A program made the translations under genes and the position numbers. From positions 587,183 to 651,182 of the forward strand of contig QCWG01000001.1 in NCBI GenBank assembly GCA_003149575.1: DNA of 64,000 nt, written 5' to 3'. Source of the DNA: Altererythrobacter sp. XM-24bin4 (GTDB lineage Bacteria; Pseudomonadota; Alphaproteobacteria; Sphingomonadales; Sphingomonadaceae). Below are positions 17,896-40,560 of this stretch, piece after piece. The notes beneath the pieces were generated by a model, which was not told the origin of the DNA, ran no database searches, and worked only from the letters and a program-made list of their open reading frames with translations. The first letter of the stretch is position 1. Each line of letters begins with the position of its first letter.

Positions 17896-17924
17896 TCCAA
17901 TCACCGCACAGGAAGGGCCAAATT

Positions 17925-24851: not shown

Positions 24852-25661
24852 TCAAGATGAAGCGCCGAGATACCCCAGTTGGCCCGCCTTGAATATGGTC
24901 TGCGCGCGATTGACGCTGTCCAGTTTCTCGCCGGCGCGGTGGATGTGATAGCGGATCGTTGCGTGAGACCGCTCAAGGATCATGCTGATTTCCTTGTCAG
25001 TCTTGCCAATCGCTGCCCAGCGCAGGCATTCCACCTCGCGTTTCGACAGAACGCAGTCCGACGGGATCCGGCGTTTAGTTCGATGAGCTTGAACATAGCC
25101 GGCGATAAAGCGGCGCGTGATCTGTGAAAATAAAGAGCCGTGCAGCGCAAACTCTTCCGACAAATCGGTTTTCTCGCGATCAAGACTGATGAAGCTGTTC
25201 GCGGAGATTTGCCCAAAGGGGAGGTGGACCGGAATAACGATCGCAGCCTTGCACATGGAGCGCTTCTCAAAGTCCGAAAGGTCGATCTCTTCGAGGTAGG
25301 AATTCTTCCAGCGTGTGTGGAATCCTTGCTCGTTGACCCAGAAAGGCTCGCTTTCGTAGCGGCAGGCGCGGGGTAGCGGCGAGCTCAAAGCCAGACGGTG
25401 ATCTTCCCACCATCGTTCCCCATTATCGACCCATCCGAACACGTCCGCATTCAGGATGGTGCCATCGGTATCAAGCATCGTCTCTTTCGATGAAATGTCA
25501 TCGCACATGGAAACCTGCATGCCGTATTCTTCGGCAATCCTCGCAATGGCCAGCGCAGCGTCATGAATGTCTTCATCACAACGGATCGTAACCAGTTCGA
25601 GCAATTGATTGAGGCTTTCACGCCCTTGGGGCGTGCGCAATTCGACGATTTCTGCAGCCAT
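24852..25661 (-). CDS. LuxR-family transcriptional regulator (LuxR solo)
   Basis: A 269-residue regulator. The C-terminal residues about 205-262 are a GerE/LuxR helix-turn-helix (LSKREVECLRWAAIGKTDKEI; SHATIRYHIHRAGEKL). The N-terminal half resembles an autoinducer-binding domain (RWWEDHRLA; EPFWVNEQG; VIPVHLPFGQISANSF), the type that binds small hydrophobic ligands. No luxI-type synthase is present. It is the only transcription factor in the catabolic region, so it may respond to the substrate, much as TeiR, also LuxR-type, does in Comamonas testosterone degradation. It is divergent from the acyl-CoA synthetase gene. Confidence 0.85.
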   Translation of the reverse strand: MAAEIVELRTPQGRESLNQLLELVTIRCDEDIHDAALAIARIAEEYGMQVSMCDDISSKETMLDTDGTILNADVFGWVDNGERWWEDHRLALSSPLPRACRYESEPFWVNEQGFHTRWKNSYLEEIDLSDFEKRSMCKAAIVIPVHLPFGQISANSFISLDREKTDLSEEFALHGSLFSQITRRFIAGYVQAHRTKRRIPSDCVLSKREVECLRWAAIGKTDKEISMILERSHATIRYHIHRAGEKLDSVNRAQTIFKAGQLGYLGASS

Positions 25662-25804: not shown

Positions 25805-27418
25805 ATGGTTTGGCAGGGTGATAATTTTGGCATTGCTTTGAAAGCGTTAGCCCGGGCCATTGAACCGGATCGGCCAGCTTTGGTGCAGGGGGGGCGGATC
25901 GTTGGCTGGTCGCAGCTCGATTCGCTGACTGACCGGATCGCGGCTGGGCTAACTGCGCGCGGCTTGAAGCCGGGCGATGTGGCCGGGCAAATGCTGCGCA
26001 ATACGCCCGATTACATCCTGGCCTATTTCGGATGCATCAAAGCCGGTGTCACTCCGGTCAATGTGAATTACCATTACAAGGACCGCGAACTGGCGGATAT
26101 TTTCAGTCGTTTTGGATTGAAAGCCCTGTTTGTAGAGAGCGATTTTGCGAACAGCGCGGGCGCGGCCATGCCTGATGGTGCTTTGACTATTGATGTCGGA
26201 AGCACGGGTTGGGCGGACTTGCAGTCCAGCGTCGCTCCCCCCGATTTCGCGCCACACGATCACAAGCAAGCGCTGTTCTTCACCGCAACTGGCGGCACAA
26301 CCGGCATGCCCAAAGCCGTGATGTGGCCATTCGAAGCGGCGTGGCAGGCCTTCGGCATTTCAGTGTGGCAGCGCGGAATGGGGGAGCCGCCTCTCGTGGC
26401 GACATCACTGGAAGAACAAGCCGCCGAAGCAGCAAAGATCGGCCCCGATCATCCCGCATCCACCTCGCCGCTCTTGCTGCTTAGCCCGCTAATGCACGGG
26501 GCGGGGCAGTTCTCGGCTGTGATCCATTTGCTGAAAGGTGGAACGCTGGCGATGCTGCCATCGGAGAAATTCGATGCCGATCTGACGATTGACGAGGTTA
26601 AACGTTTGGGCGCGCGAAACCTGTTCATGGTTGGCGATGCCTTCGCTCTGCCGCTGGCCGATGCGCTTGACGCGCGCGACGATGCTGTCGATGCGATGAA
26701 GAGCCTGCGTATGGTAACCTCGTCTGGCGCGGTGTTCTCCGAGAGCAATAAGATGCGGCTGATCAAACACAATCCGCAGCTGATGGTGTTTGATGCCTTG
26801 GGCTCTTCCGAAAGTTCGGGAACGGCGATTGTCATTACCACTGCCGCTGGTTCGAGCGGGGGCGGCAAGTTTCAGGCGCTGCCTGGCCGCTCAACCAAGC
26901 TTTTCGATGCGGATCTCAATGAAATCAAACCGGGCGAAGATGGCATTGGCATTGTCGCGCGCTCTGGCCCCTTGCCGCTCGGCTATCTCGGCGAAGACGA
27001 GAAAAACGCGAAGACTTTCCCGGAAATCGATGGCCAGCGCTATTTGATGACGGGCGATCAGGCGCGCTGGGGCGCGGACGGCACGATGGAATTCATCGGG
27101 CGGGACAATATGTGCATCAACACCGGCGGGGAGAAGGTCTTTCCGGAGGAAGTCGAGGCAGTGCTGCAAGAGCACGCCGGTGTGAAGGATGTGCGCATCG
27201 TGAGCCTGCCAGACCCGCGCTTTGGCCGGAAAGTTGTGGCGGTGGTGCAGCCAGACGGCGATGCGGATGGGCTGCAAGAGGCACTGGACACTGCCGCGCG
27301 TGAAGGGCTCGCCGGCTACAAAATACCGCGCACCTATTTCTTCACGGACACATCGCTGCGATTGAACAATGGCAAGCCTGATTACAAGGCCGCACAAGCC
27401 ATCGCGAATGAGGGGTAA
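25805..27418 (+). CDS. Acyl-CoA synthetase (AMP-forming, FadD-like)
   Basis: A 537-residue ANL-superfamily ligase. The AMP-binding P-loop is TGGTTGMPK near residue 159; the A8 hinge is GRDNMCINTGGEKVFPEEVE near residue 435; the C-terminal catalytic lysine lies in NGKPDYK near residue 526. It activates a carboxylic acid to its CoA thioester with ATP, most likely the entry step for a bulky acid. The ATG at 25805 gives the usual N-terminus. Divergent from the LuxR-type regulator, which may control it; its 3' end meets a converging SDR gene after three bases. Confidence 0.9.
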   Translation: MVWQGDNFGIALKALARAIEPDRPALVQGGRIVGWSQLDSLTDRIAAGLTARGLKPGDVAGQMLRNTPDYILAYFGCIKAGVTPVNVNYHYKDRELADIFSRFGLKALFVESDFANSAGAAMPDGALTIDVGSTGWADLQSSVAPPDFAPHDHKQALFFTATGGTTGMPKAVMWPFEAAWQAFGISVWQRGMGEPPLVATSLEEQAAEAAKIGPDHPASTSPLLLLSPLMHGAGQFSAVIHLLKGGTLAMLPSEKFDADLTIDEVKRLGARNLFMVGDAFALPLADALDARDDAVDAMKSLRMVTSSGAVFSESNKMRLIKHNPQLMVFDALGSSESSGTAIVITTAAGSSGGGKFQALPGRSTKLFDADLNEIKPGEDGIGIVARSGPLPLGYLGEDEKNAKTFPEIDGQRYLMTGDQARWGADGTMEFIGRDNMCINTGGEKVFPEEVEAVLQEHAGVKDVRIVSLPDPRFGRKVVAVVQPDGDADGLQEALDTAAREGLAGYKIPRTYFFTDTSLRLNNGKPDYKAAQAIANEG

Positions 27419-27421: not shown

Positions 27422-28321
27422 TTACCCCGTCGCCCGATCCGCTTTGTCCGCCGCGTTGGTGCCTTTGATCATCGCGCGCAGCTGTTCCCACTCGGCATCA
27501 CCAAGCCCTTGCAGCGTGGACCAGAACGTGCCGCCGGTCGCCTGATAACCAGCCCCATCGATCGCGATGGTCTGCCCGTTCACATATTCCGCGCCCGGTC
27601 CCATCAGGAACACCGCGAGATTGGCCAGCTCGTGCATTTCGCCGTGGCGGCCCATCGGGTTGATCTCATTATTTGAATTGCCGCCGCGCCCGCCGGGGGA
27701 GAGCCGCGCGCTCATCCCCTTGGTCGGGAAGAGGCCCGGCGCGATGGCGTTGAAGCGCATGTTGTGACGGCCCCATTCGACTGCCAGACTTTGCGTCATG
27801 GTGTTGATCGCGCTTTTCGACATGGCAGACGGCACGACAAAGGCCGATCCGTTCCATACCCAAGTGGTCAGGATCGAAAGGACATTGCAGCGCCCCTTCT
27901 CGGCAATGATCCGCTTGCCGACATTGTGCGTGACATAGAACGTGCCGCGGAAAACGATGTCGGCAATAGCGTTGAAGCCATTGACTGACAGGTCTTCGGT
28001 GCGGCTGATGAAATTGCCTGCTGCATTGTTGACGAGGCCGGTCAGCGGCCCGTCCGCCCAGATCTGGTCGATCATCGCGTTGATCGCATCGGCATCGCGG
28101 ATATCGCAAGCAATGCCCACGACTTTGCCGCCGTGTTCGGCCATCAATTCCTGCGCAGTCTCATCAAGCTTGTTCTGCCGCCGCCCGCAAATATAGACGG
28201 TCGCGCCCAACTTCAGGAACGCCTCGGTCATCTCGCGGCCCAATCCAGTACCGCCTCCGGTCACGAGAATTCGCTCGCTCTCCATCAGGCCGGGGCGAAA
28301 CATCAACTGCGATACATCCAT
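27422..28321 (-). CDS. 2,4-dienoyl-CoA reductase-like SDR with Trp at the tyrosine site
   Basis: A 299-residue SDR resembling DECR/FadH-type 2,4-dienoyl-CoA reductases: VTGGGTGLG near residue 20, NNAAGNFI near residue 97, GSAFVVPSAMSK near residue 165 and WGRHNMRFNAIAPG. In mammalian DECR the catalytic Tyr lies 15 residues before the active-site Lys; here that position is Trp (TTWVWNG). The enzyme would reduce a conjugated double bond of an acyl-CoA with NADPH, if active. It is the last gene of the P450-ACAD-DUF35-thiolase operon, 28 bases after the 402-residue acyl-CoA dehydrogenase. Confidence 0.83.
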   Translation of the reverse strand: MDVSQLMFRPGLMESERILVTGGGTGLGREMTEAFLKLGATVYICGRRQNKLDETAQELMAEHGGKVVGIACDIRDADAINAMIDQIWADGPLTGLVNNAAGNFISRTEDLSVNGFNAIADIVFRGTFYVTHNVGKRIIAEKGRCNVLSILTTWVWNGSAFVVPSAMSKSAINTMTQSLAVEWGRHNMRFNAIAPGLFPTKGMSARLSPGGRGGNSNNEINPMGRHGEMHELANLAVFLMGPGAEYVNGQTIAIDGAGYQATGGTFWSTLQGLGDAEWEQLRAMIKGTNAADKADRATG

Positions 28322-28349: not shown

Positions 28350-29558
28350 TCAGAGACCGAGAACGGTCTTTGCGATGATGTTCTTCTGCACTTCGTCCGA
28401 TCCGCCAAAAATCGTAGATGCACGATTGTTCAGATACTTGCCCATCGCAATCTGCGCGACTTGGCTGCCAACCGGCTCCGGCACTTCATTGCCATAGAGC
28501 GGCCGATCAACCGGCAGTTGCAGCGCATCATAACCGAGCAGTTCCAGACGCATTGTGTCCACGGCCTGGCCGATGTTGGAGCCAAGTAATTTGACGAGCG
28601 AGGTTTGCGGCCCTGGCGCGCGGCCCTTGGCAAGGTCTGCCAGAATACGCAGCTCGGTGACTTCAAGCGCTTCGGCATCCAGCCTTGTCCGCGCGAGCTT
28701 GTCACGGAAGCGCGGATCATGCGCAACTGCGCCATTGACACCCGACGGCTGCGTCTTCGCCAATTCTTGCAAGCGATCAATGCTTTGCAGTAAGCGCGGG
28801 GCGTAGCACGATCCGCCGCGCTCGTTCTCCAGCAGGAATTTGGCAATTGTCCAGCCTGCGCCTTCTTCGCCGATGCGGTTCTCGACTGAAGTCACGGCAT
28901 CGGTGAAAAAGACCTGATTGACTTCATGATCACCCGACATCGAATGGATCGGCGTCACTTCAACGCCCGGCTGATCCATCGGGATTAGCAAGAAAGTGAT
29001 ACCTTGCTGCTTCTTGCCGCTGTTGTCTGTCCTAACCAGCGCGAAAATCCAGTCCGCGTGATGGGCATGCGTCGTCCAGATTTTTGATCCGTTGACGACA
29101 TATTGGTCACCCTCCAGCCGTGCTGCGGTTTTGAGCGAAGCCAGATCCGAGCCGGAGCCCGGTTCCGAGTACCCCTGGCACCAGTAATGCTCGCCTTTAA
29201 GCAGAGGCGGCAGGAACCGGTCCTTCTGTTCCTGTGTGCCGAATTCGCAAATCACCGGACCTACCAGGCGCAGACCCAGAATCGAGATCGCAGGTGCGCC
29301 GGCCAGCGCGCATTCCTTTTCAAAGATGAAGCGCTGCGTCGGGGTCCAACCGGTGCCGCCATCTGCCTCAGGCCAGTGATAGGCAAGCCACCCTTTCTCA
29401 TTCAGGATGCGGTGCCATTCCATCCCGATGTCCGGCTCCACAAACACGCCTGGTGTGCGGCGCGCACCATCTTTGAGATGTTCGGGCAGGCTTTCCTTCA
29501 GGAACGCGCGCACTTCGTCGCGAAATGCCAGGTCTTCGGGTGAGAAATCCATGTCCAT
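28350..29558 (-). CDS. Acyl-CoA dehydrogenase, catalytic subunit of a probable heteromer
   Basis: A 402-residue dehydrogenase with CQGYSEPGSGSDLASL near residue 127, WTTHAHHADW near residue 161 and likely catalytic Glu246 in NERGG (isovaleryl-CoA-dehydrogenase position); the C-terminal loop is FGGSDEVQKN. It resembles the larger, catalytic half of alpha2beta2 acyl-CoA dehydrogenases. Its probable partner is the 355-residue protein at 32662-33729 in the same operon, which lacks a catalytic glutamate. Electrons would go to EtfAB. Confidence 0.9.
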   Translation of the reverse strand: MDMDFSPEDLAFRDEVRAFLKESLPEHLKDGARRTPGVFVEPDIGMEWHRILNEKGWLAYHWPEADGGTGWTPTQRFIFEKECALAGAPAISILGLRLVGPVICEFGTQEQKDRFLPPLLKGEHYWCQGYSEPGSGSDLASLKTAARLEGDQYVVNGSKIWTTHAHHADWIFALVRTDNSGKKQQGITFLLIPMDQPGVEVTPIHSMSGDHEVNQVFFTDAVTSVENRIGEEGAGWTIAKFLLENERGGSCYAPRLLQSIDRLQELAKTQPSGVNGAVAHDPRFRDKLARTRLDAEALEVTELRILADLAKGRAPGPQTSLVKLLGSNIGQAVDTMRLELLGYDALQLPVDRPLYGNEVPEPVGSQVAQIAMGKYLNNRASTIFGGSDEVQKNIIAKTVLGL

Positions 29559-29561
29559 GGC

Positions 29562-30317
29562 TTATTCCCCTTCTCTCATGGCCCATGCGATTCCCCGTCG
29601 CAGCAGGTCATAATAAACGTCGTAGTTCCAGGCGCACATTTCCTTGTGCGGGTAAAAATCCGCCATTCCGGGCAGGTCATAATGCCCGCGGCAATGGCCC
29701 AGCGCATTGTAGACGATGCGTCCCTTGCCGATGTCGCGCGTGTACAGGATCGGAACGGTCGTCTTGTCCCAATGTTCCTTGGTGAAGCCGGTCGCTTCGC
29801 CTTCGAACGTGGTCTGCATCAGCGTGTCGATCGGCGCGGTGGTTTCTGACAGGTAAAGTTCGTCGACAATCTCGAAATCGTCGATCCCGCGGGTCAATTC
29901 ATGGTCCTTGTTGACCACCTCCACGGGGAATGGGCCAATCGGCGGGTGCGCCTTGAACTGCGTGCCGAGCATTTCCATCAAGCCGGTTGTATCGTCGGGC
30001 GCATCGACCAGCCCGCTCTCGGTAAAGACCAGAATCGAATTGGTCCCATGCAGCGCCAGCCATTTGCCGCCCGCCTCCAACCAGCTACGCAATTGCTGCG
30101 CCTGTTCCTTGGTCGGGAGCAGGTCGCAAGTATAGGTGACGAGGAAACGGCATTGGTCGAGCCGCTCGAGTCCGGAATAGTCCGCCGCCACGGTGGTGCG
30201 GATATGCGGGTGCTCCATTAGCAGTTTGAGCACCTCCAGCCGCGCATAATCGATATCGTGATACTTGCCCGCGGCAATGAAATGCGCGTCGATCCGGGTT
30301 GCTGGTTTTTCTGCCAT
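29562..30317 (-). CDS. ThuA-like domain protein
   Basis: A 251-residue protein with the ThuA fold, related to class I glutamine amidotransferases: YTCDLLPTKEQAQQLRSWLEAGG near residue 63, ALHGTNS near residue 88, and YNALGHCRGHY near residue 207, a frequent ThuA motif. ThuA domains are known from trehalose utilisation, but here the setting is acyl-CoA catabolism, so the role is unknown. I chose the ATG at 30317, one base after the upstream SDR stop; longer in-frame versions run into that SDR. A second ThuA-like gene is at 35475. Confidence 0.78.
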   Translation of the reverse strand: MAEKPATRIDAHFIAAGKYHDIDYARLEVLKLLMEHPHIRTTVAADYSGLERLDQCRFLVTYTCDLLPTKEQAQQLRSWLEAGGKWLALHGTNSILVFTESGLVDAPDDTTGLMEMLGTQFKAHPPIGPFPVEVVNKDHELTRGIDDFEIVDELYLSETTAPIDTLMQTTFEGEATGFTKEHWDKTTVPILYTRDIGKGRIVYNALGHCRGHYDLPGMADFYPHKEMCAWNYDVYYDLLRRGIAWAMREGE

Positions 30318-30318
30318 A

Positions 30319-31089
30319 CTAGCTCCTGATGCTGCCTCCGCCATCGACCGTAATGTCGCAGCCGGTGGTGAAGCTGGCTTCGTCGCTGGCGAGCCAGACA
30401 ACCGCGCGTGCGACTTCCTCGGGCTCGCCGATACGGTTCATGGGATGGGTCGCGGCGAAATCGCGTTCGATGTTTTCCGGCTCATCTGCGCCTGAATATT
30501 TGTAGCGATTGTACATCGGCGTGCGGATTGCACCGGGGTGTACCATGTTTGCACGGATCGGCACCCCGCGTTCAGCGCAATCAAGCGCGACCGAACGGGT
30601 CAGGCCAAGCAGGCCTGCTTTGGATGCGCTGTAGGCGGCGACAAAGGCGGCGGCACGAATTGCGATCATCGATCCGATATTCACGATAGCGCCCGGCTCG
30701 CCGCTTGCTTCCATCGCGGGCAGTGCCGCGCGCATGCCGTAATATGGTCCGTTGAGATTGATGTCGATTGTGCGTTCCCACGTGTCGAGCGTGCCGTCGA
30801 CCACGTTCCCGGGTTCGGAGATTCCGGCGATATTGCACAGCACCGTCAGCTTGCCGAAGCGTTCTTGCGTCGCCTTTACTGCTTCATGCCACTGATCGAG
30901 ATTTCGTACATCGAGTTCGAAGGCCTCGGTATTCTCGCCCAGTTCCTCGGCCAGCTCGCGCGCCTTGTCGATCTGGACATCGCACAGCATCACGCTGCCG
31001 CCTTCTTCCACGATCATCCGGCCAACCGTGGCGCCGATCCCTTCCGCGCCGCCGGTGACCAGCGCAACCTTTCCGCTCATGCGTCCCAA
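30319..31089 (-). CDS. Short-chain dehydrogenase/reductase
   Basis: A 256-residue classical SDR: TGGAEGIGATVG near residue 12, CNIAGISEPG near residue 85, SMIAIRAAAF with YSASK near residue 155, and DITVDGGGSIRS at the C-terminus. The overall pattern resembles bacterial 3-alpha/20-beta hydroxysteroid dehydrogenases and 3-hydroxyacyl-CoA dehydrogenases of the SDR type. Within the operon it sits between the thiolase and ThuA genes, so oxidation of a 3-hydroxyacyl-CoA is a reasonable guess. Confidence 0.87.
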   Translation of the reverse strand: MGRMSGKVALVTGGAEGIGATVGRMIVEEGGSVMLCDVQIDKARELAEELGENTEAFELDVRNLDQWHEAVKATQERFGKLTVLCNIAGISEPGNVVDGTLDTWERTIDINLNGPYYGMRAALPAMEASGEPGAIVNIGSMIAIRAAAFVAAYSASKAGLLGLTRSVALDCAERGVPIRANMVHPGAIRTPMYNRYKYSGADEPENIERDFAATHPMNRIGEPEEVARAVVWLASDEASFTTGCDITVDGGGSIRS

Positions 31090-31103
31090 ATGCGTGTCTC
31101 CCC

Positions 31104-32249
31104 TCAGCTTTGCAGAATTGCCACGGCGCTAAGCCCCGGCGCGCCATAAACATGGCTGTATCCGGTCTTCGCGCCTTCAACCTGTCGCTCGCCTGCGCGC
31201 CCACGCAATTGCTGGACGTTTTCATAGACTTGACGAAGGCCAGACGCGCCGATCGGCTCGCCGCAGGCCAGGCATCCACCATCGGTGTTCACCGGCAGCT
31301 TGCCGCCAATCTCGGACCAGCCATTGGCAAGCCATTCTTCCTGCTCGCCATCCTTGCAAAATCCGTTTTCGGCCATGTGCATGATTTCCGCGCCGCTTTC
31401 GGTGTCTTGCAATTGAGCAACGTCGATGTCTTCCGGGCCGATCCCTGCGCCTTCAAACGCAGCCTGACTGGCAAGCACTGTGGGCTTGCCGCCTTCCTTG
31501 ATGCTGACGCCGGCCTGGAACACTTCGAAACTGTCCGGCGGGCGGGTCTTCACCGCGACCTTGGCTATTTTCACCCCGTGTGCGCCCAGTTCCTTCATCT
31601 TCTTTTCAGATGCCAGGATCAGCGCGACACCGCCTTCTGCCGGGGCGCAGAACATGTATTTGGTCAGCGGATCATTGATCATCGGCGCGTTCATGATCGT
31701 GTCGAGATCGATCGGGCTGCGCCGCCACGCATGCGGCGTGATGGTGCCGTTCTTGAACGCCTTTTCCGCCACCCGGCCCAGTGTCGTGCGGCTGATCCCG
31801 TGCAACTGCATATAACGCTGGATCTTCAATGCGAAGAATTGCGTGGTCAGCATCATGCCCGTTTGGCCGTACCATTCGGGCAGGCCATAATCGGATGGCT
31901 TAGCATTGAACGCACCGCGCGGGTGCTTATCGAAACCGACCGCCAGCGCGAGATCGTAAAACCCGCTGGCGATTGCCATTTGCGCTGAAACCAGCGCGCT
32001 GCCGCCGGTCGCGCAACCATTCGCGACATTGGTGAAGGGCAGGCTGGTCAGCCCCAGCTCGTTGACCATGATATCGGCGCTGCCTGCGGCGGCTGATCCG
32101 CCATAGGCGCATTCGATATCGGTCCACTCAAGGCCGGCATCTGCCATTGCTTCACGTACTGCAAAGACACCCTGTTCGCGGCCTGATCGACCGTCTGTGC
32201 GCCCGAAGGGATGGATGCCTGCGCCGATGATATATACGTCTTCACTCAC
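31104..32249 (-). CDS. SCP2-type thiolase / Ltp2-like lyase
   Basis: A 381-residue thiolase-fold protein. The nucleophile region is NGCATGGSAL (Cys79) and the C-terminal signature is GGCLACGEPIGASG, where the usual GHP histidine is glutamate. Proteins of this class, paired with a DUF35 protein, act as carbon-carbon lyases or thiolases on CoA esters; Ltp2 with the ChsH2 DUF35 domain is the retro-aldolase that removes the last cholesterol side-chain carbons. The start is the GTG at 32249, forming a GTGA overlap with the DUF35 gene; an in-frame ATG at 32282 lies inside that gene. Tight coupling supports a complex. Confidence 0.87.
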   Translation of the reverse strand: MSEDVYIIGAGIHPFGRTDGRSGREQGVFAVREAMADAGLEWTDIECAYGGSAAAGSADIMVNELGLTSLPFTNVANGCATGGSALVSAQMAIASGFYDLALAVGFDKHPRGAFNAKPSDYGLPEWYGQTGMMLTTQFFALKIQRYMQLHGISRTTLGRVAEKAFKNGTITPHAWRRSPIDLDTIMNAPMINDPLTKYMFCAPAEGGVALILASEKKMKELGAHGVKIAKVAVKTRPPDSFEVFQAGVSIKEGGKPTVLASQAAFEGAGIGPEDIDVAQLQDTESGAEIMHMAENGFCKDGEQEEWLANGWSEIGGKLPVNTDGGCLACGEPIGASGLRQVYENVQQLRGRAGERQVEGAKTGYSHVYGAPGLSAVAILQS

Positions 32250-32662
32250 GAGCTTTTCTCCGGCCGATAGGCAAAGGTGCAATGCGTGTCGCTGAACGGC
32301 GCGAGGCAGAATTCCATCGGCATGCCCAGCTCCAGCTTTTCAAGCGTGGCATCGACAATGCGGCTTTCGACGATCACTTCGCCCGGCAGTTCGATATAAC
32401 CCAGGAGGAACGGCTTGAAGTCCGGCGGCCCCTCATTCTCACCGCTACCCCAGCCTTCGTATGGTTCCTTGGGCAGGAAGCCCTGACTGGTCCAGCTCCA
32501 CAGCTTGCCATGGCGCGATAGCTTGACCGGTTCGACATCTTTCGCAGCGTCGCCTTGCGGCATGGGAAACACAATCTCGCCAGATGGCAAGCGGCCACCC
32601 ATCAGGTGGGGTTCGCCATCATTGCTCCACAGATCGGGATCAACCGGTGCGAGCGCGCCCAT
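32246..32662 (-). CDS. DUF35 OB-fold protein, thiolase partner
   Basis: A 138-residue protein of the DUF35 (Zn-ribbon plus acyl-CoA-associated OB-fold) family: GGRLPSGEIVFPMP near residue 23, SWTSQGFLPKEPYEG near residue 56, LLGYIELPGEVIVESRI near residue 86. The four cysteines that bind zinc in most relatives are missing; only Cys119 and Cys128 remain, both in the OB-fold half. It is translationally coupled to the thiolase downstream and to the acyl-CoA dehydrogenase upstream. It probably shapes the thiolase active site or channels the substrate. Start: ATG at 32662 sharing one base with the upstream stop. Confidence 0.84.
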   Translation of the reverse strand: MGALAPVDPDLWSNDGEPHLMGGRLPSGEIVFPMPQGDAAKDVEPVKLSRHGKLWSWTSQGFLPKEPYEGWGSGENEGPPDFKPFLLGYIELPGEVIVESRIVDATLEKLELGMPMEFCLAPFSDTHCTFAYRPEKSS

Positions 32663-33729
32663 CACGCGGCCTCCGCGTAGTGAACAAGATTGGTGTCCAC
32701 ATCGCCAAACAGTTTGGACAACAGCAGCACGCGTTTCATCGCGTGGCCGATCGCCAGTTCATCGGTAATGCCCATGCCGCCGTGCATCTGCACCGCTTCG
32801 CGCGCGATGTGATCGACGTTCTCTGTGATGTAAGCTTTTGCGCCCGCAGCCTGATGTTGCCAGGCTGCACTGTCGGACGTGTCCGTCAGCGCCGCGCGGT
32901 ATAGCATTGATCGAGCTTGCTCGATCCGCGCATAGCAATCCACCAGGCGGTGCTGCAGCGCCTGGAAACTGCCGATTGGTACGCCGAATTGCTCGCGCTC
33001 CTTGACGTAAACGAGCGTATCCTCAAGCAATCTCTGGCCCAGACCGACCATTTCGGCGGCGGCCAGCAACCGTACTTCGGCGATCGCCTGATCAAGCAAG
33101 CCCGGGGCCAGATCAAGCTTCTCTCCCGTCACACGTGTAAAGCGTAATTCGCCAGCCATGCTGCCATCAGCCATGCGATATGCGCGGGTTTCGAGTCCCG
33201 GCGCATTGGCAGCCACGATAAAGAACTCAGTCGCGCCACCGTCTTGCGCAGACACGATAAACTGGTCTGCCAATGCAGCGCCTAAAACAAAGGTTTTCTC
33301 ACCGGTAATTGTGCCGCTATCACTCTTGGTCTGTTTCGCTTCCAGACTGTAACGCTGATTGCGTTCAGCCCATGCAAGAGCGGTGAAGCTTTCGCCGGAC
33401 AGCACGCCATCCAGGGCTGTCTCCGCACTTGCCGCTGCGAGCAGTTTTGCCGGAAGAACCCCGTTCTCCAGCCATGGGTCAGGGGAATTGGCCCTCCCGA
33501 TCGCTTCACCGACCAGAGCCAGGTCAAGGATCGAACCTCCCATACCGCCCGCCTCTTCGCTTGCAGCCAGCGCTATCAGTCCCAACTCTGCCAACTCCTG
33601 CCAACGCGCAGGATCATACCCGCCATCATTCATGCGCAGCTTGCGCCGCGCCTCGACATCGATGGGGGCGGTGAAGCGCTCTACAGTCGCGCGAAACAGC
33701 TCCTGCTCTTCGGACAGATCGAAGTTCAT
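32662..33729 (-). CDS. Acyl-CoA dehydrogenase, short partner subunit
   Basis: A 355-residue acyl-CoA dehydrogenase-fold protein (MNFDLSEEQELFRA; AEMVGLGQRLLEDTLVYVKEREQFG; QMHGGMGITDEL near residue 322). Like the protein at 14542 it lacks a catalytic glutamate in both known positions and is shorter than a full enzyme. Paired FadE proteins of this sort are known from cholesterol side-chain oxidation. The likely partner is the 402-residue enzyme at 28350. Its start overlaps the P450 stop by four bases (ATGA). Confidence 0.87.
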   Translation of the reverse strand: MNFDLSEEQELFRATVERFTAPIDVEARRKLRMNDGGYDPARWQELAELGLIALAASEEAGGMGGSILDLALVGEAIGRANSPDPWLENGVLPAKLLAAASAETALDGVLSGESFTALAWAERNQRYSLEAKQTKSDSGTITGEKTFVLGAALADQFIVSAQDGGATEFFIVAANAPGLETRAYRMADGSMAGELRFTRVTGEKLDLAPGLLDQAIAEVRLLAAAEMVGLGQRLLEDTLVYVKEREQFGVPIGSFQALQHRLVDCYARIEQARSMLYRAALTDTSDSAAWQHQAAGAKAYITENVDHIAREAVQMHGGMGITDELAIGHAMKRVLLLSKLFGDVDTNLVHYAEAA

Positions 33730-34964
33730 TTGGCCACCTCATATGTGATCGGCAGCTTGGTTACCCCGCGCAGCATGATGTTGGGCAGGACTGTGATCCC
33801 GCCTTCATCTGCTAGCTGGAAATTGTCGAGCCGCTCCAGAAGCTCGTCAAAGGCGACGAACATTTCCTTGCGGCTCAGCATATTGCCCACACACATATGT
33901 GGGCCTTTCCCAAATGCCAGATGCGCGCGCGCGTTCTTGCGATCAATCAGGAATGCGTCCGGGTCTTCGAACTTGGCAGGATCGCGGTTTGCAGCGGCGT
34001 AGCGCACTTGCAGCATCGACCCGGCTGCGATCTTCTCGCCGCCCAGTTCAACGTCTTTCTTGACCACGCGCCAGATGCCCGCGCTGGGCGATTCATATCG
34101 CAGCATTTCTTCGACCATATTCTGGATCAGTTTGGGATCGCGCCCCCCGGCCGCAGCTTTTGCTTTGGCCATCTGGTCTGGATTGCGGATCAGCTGAAGC
34201 AATCCGCCCGCGATGGTAGATGTGGTGGTCTCGTTTCCGGCGACCATGAATTGCTGCATGATCGACATGATTTCCTCGTCGGTCAGCGGGGTCTCGCCTT
34301 CGACCCGTGCTTCAACGAGGTCGGTCAAAAGGTCATCACCGCCATTGGCACGGCGATCATCGATCAGCCCTTTCATGTAACGCTGGTAATCGACGAAGCT
34401 GCGCGCGCATTCCAACTCGCGCTCGCGGCTGATCAGTTGGCTGAAGCGGTCGACCGCTGCATCGGACCAGTCCTTCACTTGCTTGGGGTCGTTATCCAGC
34501 CCGATTTGCTGTGCGATCATGGCGACGGGCAAGGGAATCGCGAAGTCCTCCACAAAGTCACCGCTGCCCTTTTCCGCCATCTTGGCGATCAGTTCGATCG
34601 ACTTCTTGCGCATGTCGGCTTCGATCGCGTTCACGCGCGGGGCAGAGAATGCGAGGTTCACCAGCTTGCGGTTGCGGGTATGGATCGGGTGATCGGCGGT
34701 CAGCAGCGTAGGCGGGTTGTCCCACCCTTCCGCAAGAATTGCATCAATCTCATCATCGGCGGCGCCCATCAACGACGCAAAATCATTGGAGTAGATTTCC
34801 GGTTTGGCGGTTACTTCCGACACCAGTTCATAGGAATAGACCACCCAGGCATTGGCTTCAGCCACAAACTCGAGCTTGACCCCGGCTTCGTGTGCCTCAC
34901 GATAATAGTCGAACGGATCGACCAGTGTTTCCGGTGCGAACAGATTGCCGGCAGGCTTGTTCAT
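33726..34964 (-). CDS. Cytochrome P450
   Basis: A 412-residue soluble bacterial P450. The I-helix oxygen-activation motif is VAGNETTTS, the K-helix is EEMLRYES, and the haem-binding loop is AFGKGPHMCVG with Cys358 as axial ligand. It would hydroxylate an unactivated carbon of the substrate or its acyl chain. It is the first gene of the eight-gene run 34964-27422. The order P450, dehydrogenase, DUF35, thiolase recalls the igr operon headed by cyp125. No ferredoxin or reductase gene is nearby. Its 5' flank holds a GGGTC/GACCC inverted repeat. Confidence 0.93.
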   Translation of the reverse strand: MNKPAGNLFAPETLVDPFDYYREAHEAGVKLEFVAEANAWVVYSYELVSEVTAKPEIYSNDFASLMGAADDEIDAILAEGWDNPPTLLTADHPIHTRNRKLVNLAFSAPRVNAIEADMRKKSIELIAKMAEKGSGDFVEDFAIPLPVAMIAQQIGLDNDPKQVKDWSDAAVDRFSQLISRERELECARSFVDYQRYMKGLIDDRRANGGDDLLTDLVEARVEGETPLTDEEIMSIMQQFMVAGNETTTSTIAGGLLQLIRNPDQMAKAKAAAGGRDPKLIQNMVEEMLRYESPSAGIWRVVKKDVELGGEKIAAGSMLQVRYAAANRDPAKFEDPDAFLIDRKNARAHLAFGKGPHMCVGNMLSRKEMFVAFDELLERLDNFQLADEGGITVLPNIMLRGVTKLPITYEVAK

Positions 34965-35100: not shown

Positions 35101-35478
35101 TTAACCGCCGCCAAACTCGCGCTGAAATGTTGCCATGTCGAAATAGTCGCGCCACTCGGCTATCTTGCCATCGCCATTGATCTCGAACGTGCCCATCACA
35201 GGCAGCGCGGCACGGCGTCCATCGCTCAGGATAAATGCGTCGGTACGCTCGGTAAGGACCGAGTTGCCGTTTGTGGCGATCGTATGGATTTCCCACTCGC
35301 AGCGATCAACCGGCCCCATAAAGCCGCTCACGGCATCGCGCACTGCGGAAACACCGGTTACCGGTTCCATCGGCATGTTGTGCCAGGTGATGTCATCTGC
35401 GCACATGTCATACATTGCTTCCATGTCACCGCTGTTCCAATGGTCGACAAAGGTTTGAACGGTCTCGCTTGGGGTCAT
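35101..35478 (-). CDS. Limonene-1,2-epoxide hydrolase-family protein
   Basis: A 125-residue NTF2-fold protein whose motifs match limonene-epoxide hydrolase: HNMPMEPVTG near residue 33 (the conserved Asn), LTERTD near residue 75 (Arg and Asp of the catalytic triad) and EWRDYFD near residue 107 (second Asp). These enzymes open an epoxide with water in one step; mycobacterial EphG of this family accepts a cholesterol epoxide. The tyrosine of the Rhodococcus enzyme is Trp here. It overlaps the ThuA-like gene (ATGA). A P450-made epoxide would be a sensible substrate. Confidence 0.82.
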   Translation of the reverse strand: MTPSETVQTFVDHWNSGDMEAMYDMCADDITWHNMPMEPVTGVSAVRDAVSGFMGPVDRCEWEIHTIATNGNSVLTERTDAFILSDGRRAALPVMGTFEINGDGKIAEWRDYFDMATFQREFGGG

Positions 35479-36260
35479 AGTGTATCTCCTCCAGTAAAAC
35501 GCAGCGCATTCACCAAGATACGCTGAACATGCGGATCGGCGTAAGTCTCAGGCCCGTCACCGAATTGGCAATAAACCAGCGGGGCATTGCCGATTTGCCG
35601 CCACCACGCGACAAGATCACTGCCATTGGGATGTTCCCAACCTTCATTGCTGAACATCTCGCCTTTGACCGCCAGCGCCGCGGAATAGAAGTTCTCGCGG
35701 GTGAAATCATGACGCGCGCGGATCAAGGGATGCACCGCGCTTTCGTCGATTTGGCAAAGATATAGTTCGTCGGTGAAAGGGAATGTGTCAGGCAGTGCGG
35801 CGGTCACCGCATGCTGGGCCACTACCTGGGCATCGTAAGCGACATCGTGGCGATAGCCAGAGTCGGGCACTGACTGCCCCTGCCATTGCCCCGGCTGGTA
35901 CAGGAAACGCCCACCCAGCATTTCCGCCCATTCCGGCCAGTCAGCCCAGCCTGCCAGTGCATGGTGCATCGCGACTGCGCCTTTGCCGGATGCAAATCGG
36001 CGGGCGATTGCTTGCCTGAAGCCTTCGGACGGTGGGCGGCTCGTTACAACTCCGTCGCCAAATGTGTATCCGCCCATGTCGTAGAAAAGCAGCGCATCGG
36101 CCTCGTCCGCCGCGCCTTCAGCGACAGCTTGCTCCGCGTCCGGATGAACGAGGTGGGATACATCCCATTCGCCCAGTTCGCGGCCCAGTAGCTGGATCAG
36201 CGCGTCAAACGGCGCTTCCTCGTAAGGGTGCCCGCCAGACAGGACGAGCAACTTTCCCAT
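35475..36260 (-). CDS. ThuA-like domain protein (second copy)
   Basis: A 261-residue ThuA/GATase1-like protein: LLVLSGGHPYEEAPF near residue 4, YDMGGYTFGDG near residue 61, AMHHALAGWADWPEW near residue 97, and VYCQFGDGPETYAD near residue 231. It is only distantly similar to the protein at 29562 but belongs to the same fold. It overlaps the MDR reductase gene by one base and the epoxide-hydrolase-like gene by four, so all three are one operon. Function in this setting is unknown. Confidence 0.78.
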   Translation of the reverse strand: MGKLLVLSGGHPYEEAPFDALIQLLGRELGEWDVSHLVHPDAEQAVAEGAADEADALLFYDMGGYTFGDGVVTSRPPSEGFRQAIARRFASGKGAVAMHHALAGWADWPEWAEMLGGRFLYQPGQWQGQSVPDSGYRHDVAYDAQVVAQHAVTAALPDTFPFTDELYLCQIDESAVHPLIRARHDFTRENFYSAALAVKGEMFSNEGWEHPNGSDLVAWWRQIGNAPLVYCQFGDGPETYADPHVQRILVNALRFTGGDTL

Positions 36261-37270
36261 CAGGCGATCTTCAGGATCATCTTGCCCTGGTTCGTCCCCG
36301 CGAACAGGCGCATGAAACTGTCGAATGTGTTTTCCAGCCCTTCGTCGATGTGCTCTTCAATGGCCAGCTTTCCCTCGGCCGCCCATTGACCCATTTGCGC
36401 TGCACCCTCGCCAAAGCGTTCGACATAGTCCGCCACCAGCAGGCCGCGGATTTGTGCACGCTTGACGATGAGCTGCCACAGATTGCGAATGCCACGGGGC
36501 TCGGTGTTGTATTCGCTGATGAGGCCGCACAGACCCACGCGAGCATAGAGGTTGAGGTTCATGAGCCCGGCATCAAGGATAATCCTGCCGACATTCTCGA
36601 AGATCACATCGACGCCATCGGGCGCGGCTTCGGCGATCGCTTTCGTCAGCGCAGCTTCGTCTTTGCCCTTGTAATCGATTGCAGCATCGAAGCCGTATTT
36701 TTCTGTCAGCTTGGCGCATTTCTCAGGCCCGCCCGCGATACCAATCGCTCGGCAGCCTTTGATCTTGGCAAGTTGTCCGACAAGCGAGCCGACGGCGCCA
36801 GCTGCGCCTGTTATCAGAACCGTTTCGCCTTCCTTCGGCTCGCAAACCTCCAGAAAACCGAAATAGGCGGTCATGCCCACTGCGCCGAAGATCGAGAGAT
36901 AGTTCGTGACGCTAGGTACGAGTGTCGGGTCAATCGGCTGGGTAAAACCACCGACTTCGCCGACTGAATAATCTTCCAGCGCATTCAATCCCATCACCCA
37001 TTGGCCGGGTGCAAACCCTTCCGCGCGGCTTTCCTCGACCACACCGATTGTGCTGGCGCGCATGGCCGTGCCCAGCGGAACCGGCGGCATGTAATTGCCG
37101 CCAGCGTCCATCCAGCCGCGCATGGCCGGATCGAGCGAGGCATAGTGATTGCGGATCAGGAACTGGCCTTCTGCCAATTCCGGCGTGGGCTCGGTGACAA
37201 GCTCGAAGTCTTCGCGCACCGGCTCGCCATCTGGCCGCCGCTGGAGGAGAAAGCGCCGGTTTTCAGGCAT
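36260..37270 (-). CDS. CurA-type zinc-independent MDR reductase
   Basis: A 336-residue medium-chain reductase of the leukotriene B4 / curcumin reductase group. It has N-terminal RRPDGEPVREDFEL, SLDPAMRGWM near residue 49, the NADP-binding GAAGAVGSLVGQLAKIKG near residue 156, and no zinc-binding cysteines. These enzymes reduce alpha,beta-unsaturated ketones with NADPH. Two paralogues are at 39559 and 50839. It is 24 bases downstream of the molybdopterin oxidoreductase. Confidence 0.88.
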   Translation of the reverse strand: MPENRRFLLQRRPDGEPVREDFELVTEPTPELAEGQFLIRNHYASLDPAMRGWMDAGGNYMPPVPLGTAMRASTIGVVEESRAEGFAPGQWVMGLNALEDYSVGEVGGFTQPIDPTLVPSVTNYLSIFGAVGMTAYFGFLEVCEPKEGETVLITGAAGAVGSLVGQLAKIKGCRAIGIAGGPEKCAKLTEKYGFDAAIDYKGKDEAALTKAIAEAAPDGVDVIFENVGRIILDAGLMNLNLYARVGLCGLISEYNTEPRGIRNLWQLIVKRAQIRGLLVADYVERFGEGAAQMGQWAAEGKLAIEEHIDEGLENTFDSFMRLFAGTNQGKMILKIA

Positions 37271-37294: not shown

Positions 37295-39433
37295 TCAGGC
37301 GGCTGCGATCCGCACGGGGATCGCGCTTTGCAGCGCTTGTCCGGTGATCGGATCATAGTCGACTTCATCACTGGTCAAGCGGTTGGTTGATCCGCCCATT
37401 TCGCGCACATTGTGCTTGCCCGCTTCGCTGTCGCCAAAAGCATGCGCCATCGAAATTAGCCCGCGCCGCACCCGATCACTGCTTTTAACAATGCCATGGA
37501 TCGAAGCGTGCGGTGAACTGATTTCGATGACATCGCCATCTTTCAATCCGCGCTCTGCCAGATCATCCGGGTGTATATAGGCCGGGTTCGTGGTGATCTT
37601 GCGGCCAAGATTCTTAAGCGGCTGCCCAATCGAATTGAATCGCGCTTTCGAACGGCGTGAAATCAAGCGGAAATCGAAGCCCGCGGCGCGCGCATCCTCT
37701 GCGCCATATTTCTCCAGTTGTTTGGGCATATCGCCCGCCGCTAATTGGAAGCGGTGATGCTGGTCAGGATCAGCTGGTTCGATAACCGGATGGAGATCAT
37801 CATATATCACCGCCGCACCGCCAGCCTTGCGCGCATCTTCGCGCACCTTGCTCGGCGGAACCAGGCATCCCGCCGCCATCAAATCCAGAAATTCCTGTTT
37901 GGTCGGGCATTCATCCATCGGCACATCGCCGCCTGGAAGCTTCATTTGCACGCCAAGGTTCTTTCCGATGGTCCAGAGCATTTCATACTCGTCAATCGTG
38001 TCTCCCGGCGCGTCAGCCAGCGCTTCGGTGTAGCGCGCATAGGCATTCTCGTGCCACCATTCAGACAGATTGGTTATGTCCTCGCGCTCAAGACATTGCT
38101 TGGGTGCAAGCACGACATCCGCACGCTTGGCGCTGGCGCTCATCCATGGGTCAATCTGAACGAACAGTTCCAGATCATCCAGTGCGCGGCGCATCTTGAG
38201 CTGGTTGGGGAAACCGACTTCGGGGTTGCCACCAACCGATACAAGCGCCCGGATCTGGCCTTCGCCCGGTGTCAGGATTTCATCCGCCATCACATTGCAC
38301 GGCATTTCGAACAGCAATTGGCCAAGCCCGCGGAAGCGCGATTTGGCCATCCCTTCGACGCCGAACATCGGGGCTGGCGGCGCGACTTGAGCGCGCTTCT
38401 CACCCATCTGGATGGTAAAGACGCCGGGAACGCTGCACTTTTCGCCTTCTTGCTTGAAGCGCGCGCAAACGGTGTTGAGGCATGTCACCAGATACTCTGT
38501 CAGCGTGCCATTGCCCGCCATCTCAGGGCCGGTGCCAGTGACAGCGCAGCCTTTGGAGCCGTTTGCAAACATGCGAGCTGCGGCGACCAATTGATCGGTC
38601 TCAACCCCGGCCCGCTCTGCCGCCACTTCCGGCGTGAAGGCGGCAACTGCGTCTTTTAGTTCATCCAGTCCGTCGACATGCGCGGAGACGAAGTTGCGAT
38701 CGTAAAGCTCTTCAGTGAAAATCACATTCAGCATGCCTGCCAGCAGTGCCGGGTCTTCGCCCGGCTTTACCGGCAGATAGATATCTGCCAGCTGGCCGAC
38801 CTCGGCCAGACGCGGGTCCGCCACGATCAGCTTCATACCTTCTTTCTGGCGATCACGAATGCGTTTGGAAGGGCTGAACGGCGGCACCCCGCCAACAGGC
38901 GAGTAATGCGACACAATCGGATTATTTCCGATGAAGAACGCAACGTCAGCTTGAGAGAAGTTGTTCGCGCCGCCCATCCATTTGCCATAGCGTTCGGTCG
39001 TGAAGACCTTGGCTGGCTGGTCCAGAGTGACCGACGTAAAGAAGTGTTTAGTGCCGATGGCCTGCGCCAGGCTCATCGTAGCCATCATCGCAGAGCTGTT
39101 CTGGTAGCCGCCCGAACCCATGAAGAGTGCGATCGAGTCGGGGCCGTATTTGTCGATTATCCGGCGGAATTCATCGCTGACATGGGCCAGCGCATCCTGC
39201 ATCGGGGTTTCCTGAAACTCGCCATTTTCATCGCGCACCAGCGAATGGTGCAGACGATCTTCCGAATTGTGCGAATCCGGCAGTTCGCGGCCTTTCTTGC
39301 AGGTATAGCCGCCATATTCGGGATCATCCGGATCGCCGCGGACGGCCTTAACTTTTCCATCTTCCACATCGACCAACATCGCGCAATTTGCGTGGCAAAA
39401 GCGGCAGAATGTCTTGTGCGTTTGAACGCCCAT
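37295..39433 (-). CDS. Molybdopterin (DMSO-reductase family) oxidoreductase
   Basis: A 712-residue protein. Cys10, Cys13, Cys17 and Cys45 are arranged to bind a [4Fe-4S] cluster (CRFCHANC...YTCKKG). The molybdopterin domain follows, with GTKHFFTSVTLDQPAK near residue 128, GNNPIVSHY near residue 164 and the C-terminal dinucleotide-binding domain with NPAYIHPDDLAERG. There is no Tat signal, so it is cytoplasmic. The molybdenum ligand cannot be placed with certainty; Asp in TLDQ is a candidate. It may hydroxylate or hydrate a substrate anaerobically or oxidise an aldehyde. Start ATG at 39433 has GGAGAG eight bases upstream; longer starts are unsupported. Confidence 0.88.
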   Translation of the reverse strand: MGVQTHKTFCRFCHANCAMLVDVEDGKVKAVRGDPDDPEYGGYTCKKGRELPDSHNSEDRLHHSLVRDENGEFQETPMQDALAHVSDEFRRIIDKYGPDSIALFMGSGGYQNSSAMMATMSLAQAIGTKHFFTSVTLDQPAKVFTTERYGKWMGGANNFSQADVAFFIGNNPIVSHYSPVGGVPPFSPSKRIRDRQKEGMKLIVADPRLAEVGQLADIYLPVKPGEDPALLAGMLNVIFTEELYDRNFVSAHVDGLDELKDAVAAFTPEVAAERAGVETDQLVAAARMFANGSKGCAVTGTGPEMAGNGTLTEYLVTCLNTVCARFKQEGEKCSVPGVFTIQMGEKRAQVAPPAPMFGVEGMAKSRFRGLGQLLFEMPCNVMADEILTPGEGQIRALVSVGGNPEVGFPNQLKMRRALDDLELFVQIDPWMSASAKRADVVLAPKQCLEREDITNLSEWWHENAYARYTEALADAPGDTIDEYEMLWTIGKNLGVQMKLPGGDVPMDECPTKQEFLDLMAAGCLVPPSKVREDARKAGGAAVIYDDLHPVIEPADPDQHHRFQLAAGDMPKQLEKYGAEDARAAGFDFRLISRRSKARFNSIGQPLKNLGRKITTNPAYIHPDDLAERGLKDGDVIEISSPHASIHGIVKSSDRVRRGLISMAHAFGDSEAGKHNVREMGGSTNRLTSDEVDYDPITGQALQSAIPVRIAAA

Positions 39434-39558
39434 CACTCTCTCCTTTGACACGCAACATAACAGATGCCGTAGGGGCAGCGACTGACACTTTTGCGCGTGG
39501 TGAGTTGCGGCGTGGGCCACCATTAGGCTGAATCGACAGAAACAGCAGGAGAAACATC

Positions 39559-40560
39559 ATGCCCACCACCGCTCGCCAATGGCTTTTGAACGGACATCCG
39601 CGTGGACGGGGGATCGAGGATGGTGATTTCAAGCTGTCCGAAACACAGCTGCCTGATCCAGCCGAAGGTGAGATGCTGCTCGCAACGCGCTATCTTGGCT
39701 TCGATCCGGCGCAAAAAGGCTGGATGGAGAATATTGCGGACTATGTCGCGCCCATGGCGATCGGCGATGTCATGCGCGGCAGCGGCATTTGCGAAGTGAT
39801 CGAAAGCAATGGCGGGCGCTTCCAGAAGGGCGACTGGGTGTTCGGCACAATCGGCTGGACCGATCACCTTGTCACCGACGGCAAGGATCTGACCAAAGTA
39901 GAGACAGGGCTTTCACCAACCGCTGTTCTGTCAGTGCTCGGCACGACCGGGGTTACTGCCTATTGCGGGCTGTTCAAAGTGGGCAAGCCTGTGGCTGGCG
40001 ACACGGTGCTGGTGTCGGGTGCAGCAGGCGCAACCGGATCTGTCGTTGGGCAATTAGCGAAGATTGCCGGATGCCGCGCAGTTGGAATTGCTGGCGGTCC
40101 GGAGAAATGCAAATGGCTGGTCGAAGAAGCCGGCTACGATGCGGCGATTGATTACAAGGCGGGCGATGTAAAGCGCCAGATCAGGGAACTTTGCCCTGGC
40201 GGTGTCGATGTGATCTTTGACAATGTCGGCGGCGCAATCCTTGATGACATGCTTGCCAATATCGCCACCGGAGCGCGTGTGGTGGTTTGTGGAGGTATCA
40301 GCCGGTATGAGTCTGGCGGAACACCCACTGGCCCGGGCAATTATTTCAATCTGATTTTCCGCCGCGCCAGTATGGCGGGCTTCATCGTGCTGGATTGGGC
40401 GGCGGAATTCCCCGGCATCCGCAAGCGTTTGGAAGGCTTCGTCAATGATGGCAGATTGCGCTATCAGGAAGACATCCAGGAAGGGTTTGAAAACGCGCCT
40501 GAAACGCTGAAGCGGCTGTTTGTGGGCAAGAACCGCGGCAAGCAGATGCTCAAGCTCTAG
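39559..40560 (+). CDS. CurA-type zinc-independent MDR reductase
   Basis: A 333-residue NADPH-dependent reductase: QWLLNGHPRGRGIEDGDF at the N-terminus, LGFDPAQKGWMEN near residue 50, GAAGATGSVVGQLAKIAG near residue 155, FDNVGG near residue 217. It is divergent from the molybdopterin oxidoreductase, with a 125-base gap carrying both promoters. Its end overlaps the converging MobA gene by four bases. Likely reduces a conjugated double bond in a ring or side-chain enone. Confidence 0.88.
   Translation: MPTTARQWLLNGHPRGRGIEDGDFKLSETQLPDPAEGEMLLATRYLGFDPAQKGWMENIADYVAPMAIGDVMRGSGICEVIESNGGRFQKGDWVFGTIGWTDHLVTDGKDLTKVETGLSPTAVLSVLGTTGVTAYCGLFKVGKPVAGDTVLVSGAAGATGSVVGQLAKIAGCRAVGIAGGPEKCKWLVEEAGYDAAIDYKAGDVKRQIRELCPGGVDVIFDNVGGAILDDMLANIATGARVVVCGGISRYESGGTPTGPGNYFNLIFRRASMAGFIVLDWAAEFPGIRKRLEGFVNDGRLRYQEDIQEGFENAPETLKRLFVGKNRGKQMLKL

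Follow-up and report, generated by a model that had tools for sequence, protein, structure and literature searches.

The operon described here encodes a cytochrome P450 (P450), a two-subunit acyl-CoA dehydrogenase (ACAD), a DUF35 protein, and a thiolase-fold protein in Altererythrobacter sp. XM-24bin4. It lies within a stretch of 64,000 nucleotides (contig QCWG01000001.1, positions 587,183 to 651,182), referred to below as the window, of a genome that is 2.53 Mb in size and 99.83% complete. The thiolase-fold protein belongs to a clade, here called QDT[E/D]/GEP, that is a separate lineage within a known enzyme family and is apparently uncharacterised. In alignments this clade has a distinct predicted active-site signature (Cys90, Gln292, Asp293, Thr294, and Glu342) in place of those of thiolases, Ltp2, and Sal. 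We put at about 50% the probability that the operon is a module for removing a side chain or ring substituent from a bulky acid, branched or alicyclic and most probably isoprenoid, by DUF35-dependent carbon-carbon (C-C) cleavage.

The steroid aldolases Sal-Shy(DUF35) and Ltp2-ChsH2(DUF35) use catalytic Tyr/Cys or Tyr/Tyr residues, and those of TcLtp2 are Tyr294 (of YDHF) and Tyr344, according to the available part of the source (PMC12329534). The gene for the thiolase-fold protein (31104..32282, minus strand) starts at TTG 32282, from which residues are numbered, or alternatively at GTG 32249. Gln292 and Glu342 align with Tyr294 and Tyr344 of TcLtp2, so the catalytic tyrosines are absent, and QDTE stands where Sal has YDCY with its catalytic Tyr and Cys. 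Cys90, at the thiolase nucleophile position, is kept (32013..32015, minus strand; codon checked). The codons of Gln292-Asp293-Thr294-Glu295 (31398..31409, minus strand) occupy the place of HDCF/HDAF of thiolases or YDxF/YDCY of aldolases, and this replacement by QDT[E/D] is found in 134/134 clade rows of the alignment. Likewise, Glu342 (31257..31259, minus strand; codon checked) is the Glu of a Gly-Glu-Pro that replaces Gly-His-Pro in every one of the 134 rows; His is present at this position in 15/15 rows with HDxF. The nucleophile Cys is retained in all 134 clade rows, while 5/5 rows of Ltp2/Sal type have Gly. The same replacement of HDAF/HDCF and GHP, which the aligned rows of thiolase type have, separates the protein from BbsAB (the benzoylsuccinyl-CoA thiolase), the archaeal thiolase/3-hydroxy-3-methylglutaryl-CoA synthase complex, and SCP2 thiolases.

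The 134 rows represent 116 distinct sequences, which fall into 80 clusters at 95% identity and 29 at 82%; they include repeats, with the window's own gene present three times and some genomes possibly twice. Matches shorter than 330 aa or containing stops were left out of the alignment. Eighty loci in named genomes were found by peptide patterns that include Cys90 and contain neither QDTE nor GEP. Since these loci were preselected for Cys90, conservation of this residue rests on the 59 other rows, all of which have Cys (59/59). Because rows were assigned to the clade if they contained QDT and GEP, the uniformity at those positions is partly built in. Independently of this criterion, the two strings occur together or not at all among the 154 aligned rows.

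The clade is fully supported in the tree (100/100), and Ltp2 and Sal form a separate group with equal support (100/100). An approximately unbiased (AU) test did not reject a common branch of the clade with Ltp2/Sal (p = 0.303). The Sal, Ltp2, and other PDB rows have long branches, which limits how far the tree can place the sister group of the clade. Membership in the Ltp2/Sal group was rejected on residues and tree together, and a deeper common branch is still compatible with the data. The earlier note on this DNA had treated the protein as the counterpart of Ltp2, which is contradicted by its place in the phylogeny and by the missing catalytic residues of Ltp2 and Sal. Its other description, as an SCP2-type thiolase, fits in part: the nucleophile Cys is present and the predicted fold, from a structure model, is nearest SCP2 thiolases, but both catalytic His residues (of HDCF/HDAF and GHP) are replaced, so it is not an ordinary thiolase. 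We found no description of the QDT[E/D]/GEP clade in a literature search of titles and abstract openings that covered subscription papers in part. Where clade proteins are annotated at all, they are called ‘thiolase family protein’ or ‘acetyl-CoA acetyltransferase’.

One alternative is an ordinary thiolytic beta-ketothiolase step in the beta-oxidation of a branched acid. Glu342 would then stand in for the His that activates, with the acid/base role taken by water or some other residue. The Cys90 kept in all clade rows and the predicted fold fit this explanation, and the gene for a short-chain dehydrogenase/reductase (SDR) directly downstream could make the beta-keto group. Against it, the His and the Cys/Ala of HDxF and the His of GHP are replaced in every clade row, and the protein scores well below the cut-offs of all 25 NCBIfam models listed (best 240.5 bits against 436). 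We consider a beta-ketothiolase unlikely.

DUF35 proteins are the partners of the thiolase-fold enzymes in the steroid aldolases named above, and a DUF35 partner had been predicted here. The candidate partner is a stand-alone DUF35/OB-fold protein of 139 aa (32246..32665, minus strand) whose gene adjoins that of the thiolase-fold protein. Its OB-fold domain exceeds the Pfam OB_ChsH2_C cut-off (37.3 against 27.1 bits), and a PDB sequence search with the protein gave no match at E up to 1. This is the single DUF35 match in the genome. For the C-terminal domain of SCP2-type thiolases, the genome likewise has one strong match (E 5.5e-34), which is the operon's own, besides two weak matches near C1:1.054 Mb (E about 3e-4). 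Neighborhoods were counted in the 51 named-genome loci with 10 kb on both sides, out of the 80 best among the matches listed, and in 50 of them the gene immediately before the thiolase encodes DUF35. The zinc-ribbon pattern CxxC...CxxC is absent from the window protein and from 113/118 DUF35 ORFs (open reading frames) adjoining clade thiolases, repeats included; the five that have it are the five Rhodococcus/Streptomyces loci. This pattern indicates that the proteobacterial DUF35 line has lost its zinc site. Tandem pairs of clade thiolases occur in three genomes of one family (L057/L063, L058/L061, and L059/L062). No DUF35 was found beside them on the short stretches examined, and the paired thiolases perhaps form a heteromer.

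The actinobacterial igr operon (cyp125, fadE28-fadE29, chsH1-chsH2, ltp2) also combines a P450, a two-subunit ACAD, DUF35, and a thiolase-fold protein in one run. However, the DUF35 of igr is fused to the ChsH2 hydratase, whereas here it stands alone and lacks the zinc ribbon. The present operon also lacks a MaoC hydratase, its thiolase-fold protein is not Ltp2, and it has additional SDRs and ThuA proteins. It thus works like igr in outline and is not the igr operon. An igr-like operon of another sphingomonad, Caenibius tardaugens, has already been published; according to the part of that report available, its description relies on how closely its products match the actinobacterial igr proteins in identity, and cells deleted for it still grew on cholate (PMC12882949). 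The two operons are likened here by description alone.

The large ACAD subunit (28350..29558, minus strand) is pimC-like and the short one (32662..33729, minus strand) pimD-like, as judged from Pfam, NCBIfam, and PDB relatives. The best PDB matches of the large subunit are 4x28_A, which we take to be ChsE4, and Tcur3483 (6wy9, 6wy8). For the short subunit the best match is Tcur3481 (6wy8_A), followed by two ordinary ACADs and, in fourth place, 4x28_D. These structures presumably belong to two-subunit ACADs that act on steroids, namely ChsE4-ChsE5 and the T. curvata pair. The nearest solved relatives, on which the assignment depends, thus place the pair in the two-subunit FadE26-29 type, in agreement with the heteromeric ACAD proposed earlier. 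The P450 (33726..34964, minus strand; Pfam p450 115.6 bits), the first core gene, scores 193.6 bits with CYP125MRCA and 186.9 with CYP142, and other P450s reach 185.4; it is compatible with the CYP125/142 type and tied with other P450s within about 10 bits. We regard it as a probable hydroxylase or epoxidase of the substrate.

The igr-like reading of the earlier note therefore stands for the two-subunit ACAD, the DUF35 protein, and a P450 that is compatible but tied with other types, and falls for the thiolase, which is not Ltp2/Sal, and for the DUF35-bearing hydratase, which is missing. That note had named clustering with ordinary thiolases and ACADs as evidence against it. The outcome was mixed: the thiolase-fold protein is outside Ltp2/Sal with an SCP2-like fold and residues that are not ordinary, and the ACADs are nearest the two-subunit kind.

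KshA is required for aerobic breakdown of the steroid rings. Searches for KshA (KshA_C, PF19298) and one dioxygenase family, which together made up the steroid-nucleus test, covered 25 of the 37 genus genomes, with more fragmented or less complete ones left out. KshA_C had no match in the strain's own genome and was found in 2/25 genomes (own included; best E near 1e-58). Both of these are thiolase carriers in which the two genes share a contig but lie more than 600 kb apart. It was not found in 16 of the 18 thiolase-carrying genomes tested (own included), and this scarcity among carriers indicates that, in the genus, the module and aerobic degradation of steroid rings are not associated. A BphC-like dioxygenase was detected in 3/25 genomes, own included, always below the family cut-off; the strain's own match (C1:804282) is outside the window and is insufficient alone for a steroid pathway. 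A steroid or other isoprenoid acid had been suggested as substrate. The absence of KshA_C weakens the steroid part, and ‘other isoprenoid acid’ is the better half of that guess.

These results bear on whether the operon is a genuine steroid side-chain module, in which the thiolase-fold protein, as a divergent Ltp2 or Sal, takes off the final carbons of sterol or bile-acid side chains. In its bold form, this explanation holds that the protein supplies the missing cleavage step in sphingomonads that degrade bile salts and reportedly have neither Sal nor Ltp2; in the accessible part of a review, homologs of Sal1, Sad, and Sal2/Ltp2 are stated not to be found in Novosphingobium sp. Chol11 and related degraders (PMC8399759). 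The ACADs and P450 resemble steroid enzymes, a 73% thiolase relative, accompanied by ACADs and a P450, is encoded on a metagenome-assembled contig under the title Novosphingobium sp. Chol11, and the AU test allows a common branch with Ltp2/Sal. Nevertheless, in addition to the scarcity and distance of KshA_C, the catalytic Tyr and the hydratase are absent, and Ltp2, Sal, and the presumed IpfD (below) make up another fully supported group. We judge a steroid module quite unlikely.

Hidden Markov model (HMM) searches found no MaoC or crotonase hydratase anywhere in the 64-kb window, so the earlier remark that a MaoC-type hydratase is absent holds well beyond the operon. Outside the window, the genome has 10 matches to crotonase and 3 to MaoC. 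The window gene at 49890-50309 encodes a thioesterase with a hot-dog fold (Pfam 4HBT, not of MaoC type), the sole hot-dog protein among the window proteins scanned. HMMs built from the genome's own MaoC and crotonase matches were used to scan the other loci, and controls with known genes were recovered, the MaoC control of L067 weakly (E 1.5e-6). Within 10 kb of a clade thiolase, crotonase is present in 3/51 loci and MaoC in 0/51; P450 or Rieske oxygenase is present in 42/51, and neither of these in 9/51.

Ibuprofen degradation offers another comparison. The thiolase-fold/DUF35 pair IpfD/IpfE of sphingomonad plasmid pIBU218 is reported to release propionyl-CoA, in the portion of the source available (PMC9195938). 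Its genes, which we identified from their place and treat as presumed, sit with a Rieske oxygenase and a ligase, and the presumed IpfE, like the DUF35 protein here, has no CxxC pairs. The thiolase/DUF35 pair of the window could similarly strip an acyl-CoA chain from an oxygenase-hydroxylated carbon, making a hydratase unnecessary, and the excess of oxygenases over hydratases in the 51 clusters fits this route. On the other hand, the presumed IpfD, with its YDAF motif, groups with Ltp2/Sal and lies outside the QDT[E/D]/GEP clade, and no ACAD is listed in 50 kb of pIBU218, for which the gene table is incomplete. Such an IpfD/IpfE-like reaction is in our view unlikely. Beside a crotonase gene, the plasmid has a second pair (L170:10939-12503), in which a 59% relative of TcLtp2 is accompanied by a DUF35 that has the zinc ribbon.

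The thiolase is present in 27/37 genus genomes at 72% identity or more, and the order ACAD, DUF35, thiolase, SDR, ThuA is kept in 23 of these 27 loci (L002-L028). Two of the remainder are cut short (L008, L009) and two are rearranged (L027, L028; 72-73% identity), with the large ACAD placed after the thiolase. Conserved order within the genus and DUF35 adjacency in the named-genome loci indicate that the arrangement is not due to chance. Neighbors in the 51 named loci include the large ACAD (45), short ACAD (41), ThuA (39), LuxR (36), P450 (35), and Rieske oxygenase (31), and an SDR directly follows the thiolase in 27. Farther from home the thiolase becomes rare. An even sample of the class had a full-length match of at least 62% in 13/385 genomes (own included) and one partial match at 58%, and a phylum sample had matches of E 1e-90 or better in 2/398, one being this strain's and the other from its family. 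Among named organisms, close relatives come from Erythrobacter, Porphyrobacter, and Altererythrobacter, and the clade is also found in other sphingomonads. Rhodococcus and Streptomyces plasmids carry relatives at 57-61%, and relatives at 48-50% occur in Rhodococcus sp. USK13 and Mycobacterium branderi. The thiolase is thus patchily distributed and common only among close relatives of the strain. On a Rhodococcus plasmid, a single 6-kb stretch (L065:7139-13161) holds a QDTE-clade pair as well as an Ltp2-like (YDCF) thiolase/DUF35 pair. Another kind of cluster, in Novosphingobium aromaticivorans pNL2 and Sphingobium TomTYG65, has DUF35, thiolase, and ACAD followed by a 2-oxoacid-dehydrogenase-like E1alpha/E1beta/E2 set.

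The compact minus-strand run extends from position 37270 down to 27422, according to the ORF list, Pfam, and NCBIfam. It encodes, from 5' to 3', a medium-chain oxidoreductase, a ThuA protein, a SnoaL/limonene-1,2-epoxide-hydrolase (LEH)-like protein, the P450, the short ACAD, DUF35, the thiolase-fold protein, an SDR, a ThuA protein, the large ACAD, and a dienoyl-CoA-reductase-like SDR. ORFs and Pfam matches place all genes named in the earlier note on the minus strand at the positions given there. The overlaps of 1-4 bases it described are confirmed by ORF ends and start codons for P450/ACAD (4) and ACAD/DUF35 (4 or 1); that of DUF35 and thiolase is 4 with start GTG 32249 or 37 with TTG 32282. 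The three added genes are also present: the SDR (30319..31089, minus strand; Pfam adh_short_C2 208.6 bits), a possible beta-hydroxyacyl dehydrogenase, the ThuA-family protein with a glutamine-amidotransferase-like fold (29562..30401, minus strand; ATG 30317 a possible start), and the SDR nearest 2,4-dienoyl-CoA reductases (27422..28321, minus strand; NCBIfam PRK07677 225.9 bits, cut-off 318). The last of these ends the run, just outside the span 28350..34964 that the note had covered. A PDB sequence search with ThuA gave no match at E up to 0.1, and its structure model matches ThuA-like proteins, which points to no reaction.

Upstream, the run opens with an NADP-dependent medium-chain oxidoreductase (36260..37270, minus strand), assigned to its family by eye, whose ORF overlaps and whose relatives are conserved upstream. 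A second ThuA-family protein follows (35475..36260, minus strand; Pfam ThuA 75.1 bits). Next is the SnoaL-fold protein of limonene-1,2-epoxide-hydrolase type (35101..35478, minus strand; Pfam LEH 73.5 bits, cut-off 24). It contains ERTD and WRDYFD, and ER[T/I]D and WRDYFD are kept in the relatives compared, from Erythrobacter loci. We take these motifs to match the catalytic triad of limonene-1,2-epoxide hydrolase, Arg-x-Asp plus Asp. An LEH-like gene beside the P450 makes an epoxide/diol route possible.

The operon is surrounded by genes for an acyl-CoA synthetase, LuxR, Rieske oxygenases, a KstD-like flavoprotein, a molybdopterin oxidoreductase, and subunits of a thiamine pyrophosphate (TPP)-dependent dehydrogenase. 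The acyl-CoA synthetase is convergent with the run (25805..27418, plus strand; NCBIfam PRK07798 468.7 bits, cut-off 543), and the LuxR-type regulator (24852..25661, minus strand; Pfam GerE) is a conserved neighbor. These degradative surroundings, with ACADs, ligases, Rieske oxygenases, and the flavoprotein, speak against a biosynthetic or transfer enzyme that carries out a Claisen condensation or a C-acylation as in PhlABC, and we consider such an enzyme very improbable. The flavoprotein (43793-45412) scores highest with a 4-oxocyclohexanecarboxylate 2-dehydrogenase model (444.6 bits, cut-off 1000) and next with a 3-ketosteroid dehydrogenase model (422.2 bits, cut-off 789). The molybdopterin oxidoreductase (37295-39523) is formate-dehydrogenase-like and has relatives near the clade thiolase in 32/51 loci; a MobA-like ORF, recognized by eye, is close to it (40557-41237). 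A second ACAD-like gene pair (14542-16900 and 17131-19879) lies beside an SDR and E1alpha/E1beta of the TPP-dependent dehydrogenase. E1alpha relatives occur within 10 kb of the clade thiolase in 17/51 loci, so these genes may share one pathway with the thiolase, and an acyloin or 2-oxoacid step is possible for them.

In the side-chain or ring-substituent removal that we favor, the P450 (a Rieske oxygenase in sister clusters) would oxidize the substrate, the ligase at 25805 would form its CoA thioester, and the two-subunit ACAD would desaturate it. An SDR, or a hydratase encoded elsewhere, would provide the beta-oxygen, and the DUF35-bound thiolase-fold enzyme would cleave the C-C bond to give acetyl- or propionyl-CoA. 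The sequences themselves establish the gene set, the type of ACAD, the pairing with DUF35, the residue pattern, and the lack of a local hydratase. We infer all three central elements of the module: cleavage rather than joining of the C-C bond, Cys90 and Glu342 as a working pair, and the substrate class.

Several observations weigh against this removal module. With no hydratase nearby, the beta-oxygen step has no assigned local gene. The loss of both catalytic His residues and of the acid/base residue also fits an acyltransferase, a hydrolase, or a non-catalytic partner. An isoprenoid substrate is suggested by weak resemblances of the P450, LEH, and ACAD proteins. The Chol11 relative, together with the reported lack of Sal/Ltp2 there, makes a bile-salt side-chain role possible in some carriers. 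Finally, 10/128 clade-gene loci have no adjacent DUF35: seven are in one family (six of them in tandem thiolase pairs), two start close to the gene, so that DUF35 could be cut off, and one is M. branderi, where DUF35 adjoins another thiolase.

Taken further, the clade could represent an additional catalytic solution for C-C cleavage in the thiolase fold, with Cys90/Gln292/Thr294/Glu342 in place of Cys-His-Cys, Tyr-Tyr, or Tyr-Cys. It would then be combined with a zinc-free DUF35 in Proteobacteria and a hydratase-free pathway with oxygenase-supplied beta-oxygen, and Sphingomonadales would use the clade instead of Ltp2/Sal on terpenoid or steroid acids. This wider proposal is tentative, and we regard it as more doubtful than the removal module itself. 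The uniform replacement of the active site, in a clade whose window member is above no NCBIfam cut-off among the matches listed, is of specialist interest. If the clade does cleave C-C bonds, the thiolase fold would gain one more active-site design, and the clade would be a candidate for side-chain steps in sphingomonads reportedly without Sal and Ltp2.

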